A stretch of DNA of 64,000 nt from positions 2,232,001-2,296,000 of the forward strand of contig NC_013441.1 of assembly GCF_000024785.1 (NCBI RefSeq), read 5' to 3'. The translations under genes and the position numbers were made by a program. The notes beneath the pieces were generated by a model. The model made no database searches and was not told the DNA's origin. It saw only the letters and a list, made by a program, of their open reading frames with translations. The stretch is from Gordonia bronchialis DSM 43247 (lineage in GTDB: Bacteria; Actinomycetota; Actinomycetes; Mycobacteriales; Mycobacteriaceae). This document shows positions 39,269 through 42,250 of this stretch, one piece after another; position 1 is the first letter of the stretch, and every line of letters begins with the position of its first letter.

Positions 39269-39308
39269 TCGCGCGATGGGCGTGATCACAACCACTTATG
39301 CTGGTGAC

Positions 39309-39746
39309 ATGAGTGTTTCGGCGCCGGGCGACACGACAACTCTCGCACGACGAGGGTGGACCTCGTATGCGCTCTTCGCGAAACTCTTTGTCGAGCGAGC
39401 CGAGATCGGCGACGACCCGTCGTTGGCGGTCCGTGTACTACGTGAAGTGGTCCGGGCAGCCCGAGCCCTGGATGCGCAGGCGGAGATCGACGCCTTTCAT
39501 GCCGAGCCCCCGACCACCGGATCGGACGGGTGGGACGCCTTGCTCGCCGGTGTCGCCGTGCTGACCGGCGCCGGGCGGACGACCCCGGGAGTGCTGGACT
39601 GGTGCGACGCCCCAGGCCGGTGGTGCGTCGAACTCTTCGATCCCCTCGACTCCGGCAAGTACTTCCTGCTGGAGATGCTGCGAACGCCGGCGCCGATCCG
39701 CGAGCGCAATGTCGTGCTGGCAGCGGGCAATCTGCTAGGGGTGTGA
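39309..39746 (+). CDS. Unknown protein preceding a nucleotidyltransferase
   Basis: This 145-residue protein is mostly helical by composition. It has no signal peptide, Cys cluster or motif I recognise; notable segments are GWTSYALFAKLFVERAEIG and LFDPLDSGKYFLLEML. It lies 4 bases before the nucleotidyltransferase gene, so the two are surely cotranscribed. An antitoxin-like or regulatory partner role is inference from that arrangement. TATGCT at 39297-39302 ends 6 bases before the ATG at 39309, supporting this start and a separate leaderless mRNA. Confidence 0.65.
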   Translation: MSVSAPGDTTTLARRGWTSYALFAKLFVERAEIGDDPSLAVRVLREVVRAARALDAQAEIDAFHAEPPTTGSDGWDALLAGVAVLTGAGRTTPGVLDWCDAPGRWCVELFDPLDSGKYFLLEMLRTPAPIRERNVVLAAGNLLGV

Positions 39747-39750
39747 GGAC

Positions 39751-40299
39751 ATGGTCGACGTGGTCCTCACCGCCGATGACATCGAAAAGCTGCTGACCGC
39801 GCTCGAGTCCGCACTTCGGCGAAAAGGGAGTGAGGGCCGCATCTTCATCGTCGGCGGTGCGGCGATGGTGCTGGCTTACAACGCGGGTCGTTCGACAGGC
39901 GACATCGACGGGGTCATGCAGCCGCGGGAGGTGGTGCTCGATGCGGCGCGTGAGGTTGCCGCGACGTATGGCCTGCCCCAGAACTGGCTGTCCGACGGGG
40001 TCCTCCAGATGCACATGCCCCCGCGTGCGGACGACCATCCGCTGTCGCGGCGCATCGGTCCTGCACTGACGATCGAGATCGCCTCGGCCGAGTACGTACT
40101 CGCCATGAAGGCGATGTCGACCAGATTGTCCGACGGTGACCTGAAGGACGCCGCACGGCTGTGTGCCATGCTGGGCTTCACCGACGAGGCGGAGATCGAG
40201 GCAGTCATCCGGCGCTACTATGGTTCAGCGGATGTCTTTGGGGCACAAGAGCTCTGGTTTGAGCGAATCATCGCGGCCGCCGCAGAAGGCGATTTCTAG
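39751..40299 (+). CDS. Nucleotidyltransferase-fold protein (AbiEii/DUF6036-like)
   Basis: This 182-residue protein has RIFIVGGAAMVLAYNAGRSTGDIDGVM. This resembles the G-G...R-x-T-x-D-I-D core of the polymerase-beta-type nucleotidyltransferases in AbiEii/DUF6036 toxins and related proteins. LTIEIASAEYVLAMKAMS and GDLKDAARLCAMLG match the helical C-terminal half. Such enzymes can be toxins that modify tRNA or proteins; toxicity here is inference. Its TAG stop (40297-40299) lies in the CTAG that forms the left end of a small inverted-repeat element. Confidence 0.75.
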   Translation: MVDVVLTADDIEKLLTALESALRRKGSEGRIFIVGGAAMVLAYNAGRSTGDIDGVMQPREVVLDAAREVAATYGLPQNWLSDGVLQMHMPPRADDHPLSRRIGPALTIEIASAEYVLAMKAMSTRLSDGDLKDAARLCAMLGFTDEAEIEAVIRRYYGSADVFGAQELWFERIIAAAAEGDF

Positions 40300-40462
40300 T
40301 GTCCCGTGTTGGAGATTCGTTTGCGCGAGTCCGGCGATCCAGGTGGATGCATCGCAAGGCGGCGGAGGACGCAGCTACTGGTTGTACCTGCGACGACGCC
40401 AACGCAGCGAGGCGCCGCCTGGGCGTCGGAATCGTCAACGAATTTCCAACACGGGACACTAG
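40296..40462. mobile_element. TA-flanked miniature inverted-repeat element (candidate MITE)
   Basis: The left end 40296-40321 and the reverse complement of the right end 40437-40462 agree at 25 of 26 bases, differing only at position 19. Both begin CTAGTGTCCCGTGTTGGA. The core of about 115 bases has a further inverted pair (AGGCGGCG and CGCCGCCT) and no plausible gene. Taking TA as a target duplication, the outer bases GTGTCCC/GGGACAC are the element termini, as in IS630/Tc1-mariner-type elements. No transposase is present in the window, so it would be non-autonomous. Confidence 0.7.
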
Positions 40463-41115
40463 GGCGTCTTCCCGTCGCGCAGCTTCGTCGCCATCACCGC
40501 GACCTGAGTGCGCCGCTGCATGTCCAGCTTGGCCAGGATGCGTGATACATAATTCTTGATCGTCTTCTCCGCCAAGAACATTCGCTCGGCGATCTGCCGG
40601 TTGGTCATGCCCTCGCCGATGAGGTTGAAGACCTCGCGCTCCTGACTCGTGAGTTCGGCGAGCGGGTCGGGCCGGTCCTTGCCGTCGCGGAGCTTGGCCA
40701 GCAGGGCGGCCGTACTCCGGTCGTCGAGCAGCGAACCGCCGCGTCCCACCGTGCGCACCGCGGCCACCAGGTTGTGGCCGAGGATCTGTTTGAGCACGAA
40801 CCCGGAGGCGCCGGCCAGGACCGCGGCGAGCAGTGCGTCGTCGTCGGCGTAGCTGGTCAGCATCAGGCAGTGGATGGACGGATTGGCGGCGCGGACGTCA
40901 CGGCACAGCTCGACACCGTTCCCGTCGGGCAGACGGACGTCGAGGACGGCCACATCGGGTGTGGTGGCGCTGATACCGACCTTCGCCTCGCGCACCGACG
41001 CGGCCTCGCCCACGACCTCGATGTCACCGGCCGTACCGAGCAGATCGCGTAGCCCGCGGCGGACCAGCTCGTGATCGTCGACGAGGAAGGCGCGCACGGG
41101 CGTATCGGCTGACAT
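40459..41115 (-). CDS. DosR/DevR-like response regulator (NarL/LuxR class)
   Basis: This 218-residue regulator has a receiver domain with [15 protein letters not shown] and the phospho-acceptor Asp in [19 protein letters not shown]. The C-terminal LuxR-type helix-turn-helix reads [33 protein letters not shown]. Several stretches are near identical to DosR of M. tuberculosis. The ATG at 41115 lies 6 bases after TATTTT (minus strand, 41127-41122), so the mRNA is probably leaderless. Its TAG stop lies in the right-end CTAG of the element. The GAF kinase encoded at 37619-39268 is the probable partner. Confidence 0.88.
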
Positions 41116-41168
41116 ATCTCGAAAATACCCGAGGAGCCTGCGCGATTCGCGACGTCGGTCCCGGCGCA

Positions 41169-41188
41169 TTCGGGACTTTGGCCCCACG
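41169..41188 (+). promoter_or_regulatory. Candidate DosR box
   Basis: TTCGGGACTTTGGCCCCACG matches the DosR consensus TTSGGGACTWWAGTCCCSAA at 15 of 20 positions, with the first 11 all matching. It lies in the divergent region between the DosR-like gene and the desaturase gene, 66 bases before the TTG start of the latter. Confidence 0.55.
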
Positions 41189-41254
41189 ATCATCAGCCGT
41201 CACACGCGCAGAGTGACGATCGCACCAGTAACAACTGACACAGGAGTGTGTGCG

Positions 41255-42250
41255 TTGACCATCCTCATCGGTTCGCCCGAACTCAATGACACGGGAATGA
41301 CCGGCTCCGACCTCCTCCGGGAACTGCTCCCGGTCTGCGAGAGCGAAGTCGAACGGCACATGAAGATGACCAAGGACTGGCACCCGCACGACTACGTGCC
41401 GTGGGACGACGGACGCAACTTCGCGGCCCTCGGTGGTGAGGACTGGGACCCGTCACAGTCGCAGCTGTCGGAGACGGCCAAGGCCGCGATGATCACCAAT
41501 CTGCTGACCGAGGACAACCTGCCGTCGTATCACCGGGTGATCGCCGACAACTTCAGCCTCGACGATGCGTGGGGATTCTGGGTCGGCCGGTGGACGGCCG
41601 AGGAGATGCGGCACTCGGTGGTGATGCGCGACTACCTCGTCGTGACCCGGGGGGTGGATCCGGTGGAGCTCGAGAACATCCGCATGGAGCACATGACCCA
41701 CGGTTTCAACCCGCTGCCCGAGGACGACGGTCAGCGCGACCACAGCTTCGACATGCTCTACGCCGTCGCCTATGTGAGCTTCCAGGAGCTCGCCACCCGC
41801 GTCAGCCACCGCAACACCGGGAAGGCCTGCGGCGACCCGATCGCCGACCGCATGCTGCAGCGGGTGGCGGCCGACGAGAACCTGCACATGCTCTTCTACC
41901 GCAACATCGTCGCCGGCGCGCTGGACCTCGTGCCCGACCAGACGATGGCCGCCATCTACGCGATCGTCTCGAACTTCCAGATGCCCGGTGCCACCATGCC
42001 CAACTTCCGGCGCAACGCCGTCCTGATCGCCAAGGGCGGGATCTACGATCTGCCACAGCATCTTTCGGAGGTCGTCATGCCGGTGCTGCGTAAGTGGAGG
42101 ATCTTCGAGCGCGACGACTTCGGTCCGCTCGGCGAGCACTACCGGGAACTCCTCGGCGAGTTCCTCGAGCAGATGAACGTCAAGGTCGAGAAGTTCGAAG
42201 CCGCCCGCGAACGCGCCATCGAGCGGGCCCGTGCGAAGGGGATGGCATGA
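41255..42250 (+). CDS. DesA1-like acyl-[ACP] desaturase
   Basis: This protein of about 331 residues belongs to the soluble ferritin-like di-iron desaturases. NHIS-free ligand motifs are visible as TAEEMRHSVVMRDYLVVT and AADENLHMLFYRN, the two E/D-E-x-x-H half-sites. HDYVPWDDGRNFAALGGEDWDPSQS and the ending EVVMPVLRKWRIFERDDFG closely follow mycobacterial DesA1, which desaturates meromycolate precursors. The TTG at 41255 has AGGAG 8 bases upstream. GTG 41213 and ATG 41297 are in-frame alternatives. A DosR-type box lies upstream, suggesting low-oxygen control. Confidence 0.88.
   Translation: MTILIGSPELNDTGMTGSDLLRELLPVCESEVERHMKMTKDWHPHDYVPWDDGRNFAALGGEDWDPSQSQLSETAKAAMITNLLTEDNLPSYHRVIADNFSLDDAWGFWVGRWTAEEMRHSVVMRDYLVVTRGVDPVELENIRMEHMTHGFNPLPEDDGQRDHSFDMLYAVAYVSFQELATRVSHRNTGKACGDPIADRMLQRVAADENLHMLFYRNIVAGALDLVPDQTMAAIYAIVSNFQMPGATMPNFRRNAVLIAKGGIYDLPQHLSEVVMPVLRKWRIFERDDFGPLGEHYRELLGEFLEQMNVKVEKFEAARERAIERARAKGMA

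Follow-up and report, generated by a model that had tools for sequence, protein, structure and literature searches.

The window analysed here, a stretch of 64,000 nucleotides from Gordonia bronchialis DSM 43247 (NC_013441.1, positions 2,232,001 to 2,296,000), contains two convergent genes separated by a 167 bp element with inverted ends at 40296-40462. The left-hand gene lies on the + strand (39751-40299, 182 aa) and ends with the stop codon TAG at 40297-40299, while the right-hand gene lies on the - strand (40459-41193, 244 aa) and is closed by a TAG at 40461-40459, which reads CTA at 40459-40461 on the + strand; both stops are where an earlier note, made from the sequence alone, had placed them. 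The name DosR-like given there to the right-hand gene is borne out by Pfam matches to Response_reg and GerE (LuxR-type HTH), whereas nucleotidyltransferase holds only weakly for the left-hand gene, with DUF6036 at 22.4 bits falling below the Pfam cut-off of 23.6. This nucleotidyltransferase-like protein and a 156-aa protein lacking a Pfam match are encoded at 39276-40299, between a GAF histidine kinase gene and the DosR-like gene, and the same two-gene pair was found elsewhere in five inspected loci. Elsewhere in the window, an Rfam match to the ASdes sRNA (42.3 bits, gathering score 40) is located inside a fatty acid desaturase gene (41603-41670, - strand; L001 2814-2881).

The arms of the element (40296-40321 and 40437-40462) are, as previously proposed, 26 nt long and complementary at 25/26 positions (96%), with a 115 nt spacer. 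They consist of a TA target duplication at 40297-40298, which forms the first two bases of the upstream gene's TAG, a left terminal inverted repeat at 40299-40321 (+ strand) of which the first G completes that TAG, a right terminal inverted repeat at 40437-40459 (- strand) of which the first G (opposite 40459) completes the convergent TAG, and the second TA at 40460-40461. Because the element starts and ends with a G beside the TA, both TAG stops are intact after the insertion, and the claim that both proteins were left unchanged can be upheld. With the element removed and the flanks joined, the + strand reads ..GGC GAT TTC TAG.. and the - strand ..AAG ACG CCC TAG.., sharing one common CTAG. 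The 167 nt are predicted to fold into a single hairpin of -112.1 kcal/mol (z = -12.3 versus 200 shuffles), and neither a σ70-like promoter nor a T-tailed terminator was found in 40200-40560 of this copy. The spacer contains an RNA-like hairpin, here called the core, at 40328-40429 (+ strand, C1:2272328-2272429), which matches model R1 and shows the pairing bias and covariation described below, and which includes the two halves of a near-invariant motif, on the + strand at 40354-40365 (GCAAGGCGGCGG in the window copy, consensus GCAAGGCGGAGG) and 40397-40405 (CGCCAACGC in the window copy, consensus CGACAACGC).

Within its own genome (5.29 Mb, 2 contigs) the subfamily comprises eight full copies of 164-165 bp from TA to TA, along with one half copy and a fragment of 27 bases. 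Identity to the window copy is 97-98% for six of the other full copies and 90% for the seventh; all full copies have CTAG, or a sequence one base away from it, at their ends, and differ in their outer flanks. Two further copies (C1:2373127 and C1:3311804) have the same core with other ends. Being short (167 bp), present in eight full copies and without a gene of its own (open reading frames crossing it as given in the program-made list), the element at 40296-40462 is confirmed as a miniature inverted-repeat transposable element (MITE), a short non-autonomous transposon. A full-length insertion sequence (IS) with nearly the same end, as the earlier note had envisaged, is also present: IS-A has six copies, five of which measure 1115 bp between the ends and have an open 360-codon transposase frame, while the sixth has a broken frame and adjoins another IS-A copy. 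The IS-A transposase scores 274.5 bits with the NCBIfam IS630 model (cut-off 100), its left end matches the left and right ends of the window element at 20/23 and 21/23 positions (its right end at only 13/23 and 14/23), and all five copies checked have CTAG at their junctions. At C1:665240 a MITE copy lies directly against an IS-A copy (L040, C1:664126-665406), and at C1:1363284 and 1364402 two abutting IS-A copies (L041, 1363284-1365516) have a rebuilt CTAG in common, as expected if every insertion rebuilds its target. The genome has a second IS630-type insertion sequence, IS-B, with seven copies; in three of these (L065, L066 and L067) the sequence just beyond the assigned right end is identical, so the end may be further out or the copies may lie beside another repeat. 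No near match to the IS630-family IS was found in plasmids. IS630 of Shigella sonnei reportedly prefers the TA within CTAG, an observation ascribed to Tenzen and Ohtsubo in 1991; it shares the target rule behind the landing in stop codons, although it is an autonomous IS whereas the window element is a MITE.

The earlier note had inferred an ancestral site in which a single CTAG held both overlapping stops, and the joined flanks agree with this. Orthologous DNA crossing the junction without an element was found for two other copies of the family: the L007 copy (genome G006) aligns with L371 at 74% identity over the joined flanks, and the L099 copy (G065) aligns with L372, which has a single CTAG and 76% identity, the right flank matching much more weakly than the left; a third element-free alignment, of L099 with L373, is convincing on the left flank only. 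For the window copy itself, a search with the joined flanks gave matches to the DosR side alone among the matches listed. Starting from the nucleotidyltransferase, 8/59 genomes of the genus matched, its own included, and none of the places inspected (7 of the 10 others, from 6 of the 7 other genomes) had a DosR-like gene alongside, while the proteins of the upstream pair had no match around the DosR-like gene in stretches from 27 relatives. In 22/27 of these relatives the kinase gene lies directly beyond the DosR-like gene and faces it, without the two-gene module, so that only the DosR side can be compared; its stop codon is TAG in 8/27, seven of these within CTAG, and none has the element after the stop. 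As the upstream pair was not found beside the DosR-like gene in the relatives examined, the exact ancestral junction of the window, with its overlapping stops, is inferred rather than seen.

We extended the analysis to related elements, using a set of 117 model hits in 114 of the 158 loci scanned. After omission of the duplicate L069 and the secondary hits in L039, L123 and L102, 113 were typed, and leaving out L147, which is too close to a contig end, gave 112 elements delimited by their inverted ends. At least 14/18 end bases match in 108 of them, L032, L083, L133 and L134 falling below this threshold. The end sequences are of many types; TA is found at both ends in 50/112, at one end in 52 and at neither in 10, with TNA or altered ends among the rest, which suggests that some elements have a TNA rather than a TA repeat. 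Of the 108 elements, 44 exactly abut an in-frame stop codon, seven of them on both sides, including the window element, and 51 junctions are at offset 0 from an in-frame stop versus at most five at any other offset (counted on open reading frames of 100 codons or more whose GC at the codon positions is coding-like, not with a gene caller). Control CTAG sites in the flanks, from which near ends and elements were excluded, are at stops in 9/71, intragenic in 14 and elsewhere in 48, making the excess at stops significant versus all 71 control sites (Fisher p 4.9e-5) as well as versus the 57 non-genic sites (1.4e-3). The autonomous IS elements have a junction at a coding stop in 1/6 copies of IS-A (one checked single-sided) and 3/7 of IS-B. 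Landing on stop codons is typical for this target, a point absent from the earlier note, and follows from a CTAG target combined with the survival of harmless insertions: an element beginning with GTG and ending with CAC rebuilds CTAG at both junctions of a C-TA-G insertion, and a TAG stop within CTAG therefore survives. With copies, an IS partner and element-free sites of two other copies, the proposal of a precise, neutral TA-targeting event by a non-autonomous element is supported.

Also beyond the earlier note, the 115-base interior proves to be a conserved, folded motif rather than filler, in which GCAAGGCGGAGG and CGACAACGC enclose a stem-loop, and which is found in elements with IS630-like or IS5-like ends. 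At the DNA level, 12 of 61 related genomes had a match. In G045, G046, G048 and G059, which belong to other families, it covered mainly the interior, and in a fifth, G040, an end; in a looser comparison several of these matches spanned the whole element, at 64-70% identity. Model R1, built from 20 elements and used at E <= 1e-4 with up to 10 candidates scored per genome, has matches in 83/397 genomes of the order, belonging to 30/85 genera. Model R2 (E <= 1e-6) has matches in 26/396 genomes across the phylum with a patchy distribution, and none of the matching genomes belongs to the genus g23 of the same family. Scanning named genomes with the exact pattern gave at least 120 stretches, mainly from Streptomyces; the matches listed also include Nocardioides, Nocardia, Gordonia and Pseudonocardia, and beyond the actinobacteria Anaerobium acetethylicum, a Clostridiaceae strain, two Thiomonas strains and records of Lachnospiraceae, Blautia, Sulfuritalea, Azonexus and Myxococcales, many of them metagenome-assembled. 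The core is thereby present outside the order in Clostridia, Betaproteobacteria and a metagenome-assembled Myxococcales genome, with 2 to 24 R2 copies in each of nine such non-actinobacterial genomes. When 30 loci were examined for ends, 12 from Bacillota shared the plan of the window element, with 162-171 bp and TA-type ends, often CTAG, and two Myxococcales elements measured 126-127 bp; clear TA-bounded ends were not found in Thiomonas, Sulfuritalea and one locus of G646, where the core is present, and 5/30 loci had no anchor. There was no core match in phages, and a single weak Streptomyces match, to part of the interior, in plasmids. In Thiomonas delicata two cores lie 421 bp apart (L250, 5858-6332), and second matches were also seen in L039, L123 and L102, suggesting clustered insertions.

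The ends surrounding this core are not of one kind. IS-A documents the IS630-type ends, and a second type is represented by a 935-bp IS at L160 (genome G189), of which one open reading frame matches NCBIfam IS5 (134.5 bits, cut-off 110) and the other contains a DDE_Tnp_1 domain. Its left end matches the elements L093, L094 and L148, from other genomes (G206 and G275) of the same genus as G189, at 19-21/23 positions. No IS with ends of this type was recognised among 22 matches in G206, and in G275 an IS-like end is located at three contig ends. These are the two end types for which a similar IS is documented. A single core is shared by elements with ends similar to those of different transposon families.

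The predicted fold was assessed in 51 cores from across the phyla. The 39 specified pairs, in four helices, are formed in 74.9% of cells versus 55.3% in shuffled alignments, although the helix of columns 37-43/74-81 is formed in only 48% of cells. Doubly changed cells number 401 versus 177 +/- 10 after shuffling, and the covariation score is 0.487 versus 0.175 +/- 0.010 for shuffles and 0.095-0.153 for slid partners, with shuffles that ignore relatedness in both comparisons. For four of the five covariation measures 0/500 shuffles were as high, whereas for the fifth, the count of pairs showing a double change, the observed value does not differ from chance (32 versus 31.3; 251/500 shuffles). 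In alignment A6 the motif is invariant by construction, since its loci were found by exact pattern; in 40 representatives found with R1, itself built from such elements, 16/21 motif positions are at least 90% conserved. The core also has a strand: the + strand RNA fold is lower than that of the opposite strand in 40/40 representatives, and in a strand-neutral self-alignment G-T pairs outnumber A-C pairs by 228 to 36 on the core strand, with G-T greater in all 40, which owing to common ancestry are not 40 independent events. By region, the ratio is 153:19 for the inner part and 75:17 for the outer 26 bases. A separate set of pattern-derived loci gave 124:16 in the 40/115 loci that exceeded the 99% level of swapped-arm complementarity (medians 35 versus 14), with G-T greater in 35 and tied in 5, a null test which is weakened by the presence of related Streptomyces loci. 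By our reasoning G-T and A-C should arise equally in double-stranded DNA, and the bias therefore points to selection for pairing on the core strand; we consider it probable that a single-stranded fold is under selection, most simply RNA. No Rfam 15 model scored over its gathering score at the window element, the best being a miRNA precursor model at 35 versus 268, and a search at 20 loci (E <= 0.05) gave two matches, both outside the elements. A sub-threshold T-box leader match (43.7 bits versus 93) is located beside the element in L073 (1637-1867). A kink-turn or a twister-like ribozyme was considered for the loop and dropped, as no result supported either.

The core could instead be selected as a single-stranded DNA hairpin of one strand, for instance during replication or a step of transposition. 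Pairing bias cannot separate RNA from single-stranded DNA, in which G-T also pairs better than A-C, and the window element is predicted to have a stable DNA fold (-58.4 kcal/mol, z -8.3). The orientation of the elements relative to the flanking genes is random, with 25 between convergent and 20 between divergent genes, 26 in sense and 34 in antisense orientation and 3 unassigned; a role in host transcripts predicts an orientation bias, which was not seen. To our knowledge, neither IS630 nor IS5 elements have a single-stranded step specific to one strand. A further point against the DNA hairpin is the mechanism of the IS630-type ISY100, for which the cited passages of PMC2170065 describe cut-and-paste transposition and double-strand breaks at the ends of the element, and we consider selection as DNA unlikely. 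A further step down in plausibility, the element may be kept for terminating transcription in both directions between convergent genes, which would suit its hairpin, stable on both strands, and would fit the 25 elements in such positions. However, convergent placement is not in excess (25/105 elements with both neighbours called, versus 30/130 in the control), the window copy has no T-rich tail, and a plain terminator requires neither an invariant loop nor a one-strand bias, which makes this explanation distinctly improbable.

It is very unlikely that the core reflects mere shared ancestry, i.e. that an old MITE was spread horizontally, with too little time for its interior to change and a fold not under selection. 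Within the genome, six of the other seven copies are indeed 97-98% identical, and the patchy distribution (26/396 genomes across the phylum) would agree with horizontal spread, but compensating changes rewrite the stems while the loop stays constant (0/500 shuffles for four of five measures), subfamilies keep the core while their ends differ, and the G-T versus A-C ratio of 228:36 is not explained in this way. That the 167 bases represent ancient, conserved intergenic DNA without any insertion can be dismissed, as the failure to find the exact empty junction of the window is outweighed by dispersed near-identical copies with TA-bounded ends and by element-free orthologous sites for two copies, which refute it for the family.

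In the explanation we favour, the 167 bp are a MITE mobilised by an IS630-family transposase acting in trans, its most likely source being the 1115-bp IS with six copies in the same genome. On this view the MITE was inserted at the TA within a CTAG in which the TAG stops of two convergent genes overlapped, and its core is a structured RNA-type motif of two internal-loop halves in covarying stems, folding on one defined strand. We estimate the probability of this explanation as a whole at roughly 0.78; mobilisation by the resident transposase is suggested by the similarity of the ends. The role of the core is more speculative. Transcripts running through the element would fold on the core strand, and the core may be bound by a widely conserved host factor, which would make the insertion tolerable or aid the persistence of the element; we offer this host-factor role as a tentative suggestion. 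It would nevertheless be the role we favour, with the RNA motif being recognised in read-through transcripts by a conserved host factor, and a function as single-stranded DNA coming second.

Similar elements are known from other bacteria. The pneumococcal RUP, associated with IS630-Spn1, is by description also a short, non-autonomous, intergenic palindromic repeat with IS630-like ends and a TA target, but it is 107 bp long, versus 167 bp with a structured core for the window element, and according to PMC2229807 it has no further signature of structure or function. The NEMIS/Correia and ERIC elements resemble our family as described in being MITE-like repeats with a proposed hairpin RNA role, their transcribed hairpins being proposed to act on mRNA through RNase III (NEMIS) or exposure of RNase E sites (ERIC); they differ in being from Neisseria and from enterobacteria including Yersinia, and in that a single core across differing transposon ends does not feature in the cited description (PMC2229807). 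MITEPsy1 of Pseudomonas syringae, a 100-nt MITE with a CTAG or YTAA target and IS5-family-like ends, shares its MITE nature, CTAG target and IS5-like ends with members of the core family, and the cited passages of PMC3189936 describe no internal RNA motif. Our searches of open-licence PMC papers yielded MITEs with ends of the IS630 or IS5 type, as well as MITE transcripts for which a part in mRNA decay is proposed, and no account of this core.

As a rule, MITEs are regarded as a pair of ends with nothing of interest in between. Here the ends vary more than the middle, which folds on one strand and is found, in several phyla, with ends resembling those of two unrelated transposase families. We lean, by a modest degree, towards the core being an undescribed class of structured RNA, protein-binding or possibly catalytic, which is carried as a MITE payload and passed between IS630- and IS5-mobilised elements, and would thus have reached Actinomycetota, Bacillota, Pseudomonadota and Myxococcota. 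Should the core prove to be a functional RNA, it would establish a new class of motif and provide an example of selection acting on a selfish element through its RNA. The rule for stop codons, in which a CTAG target and ends starting with G rebuild the TAG, also offers a simple and testable explanation for the harmless entry of such elements into dense genomes.
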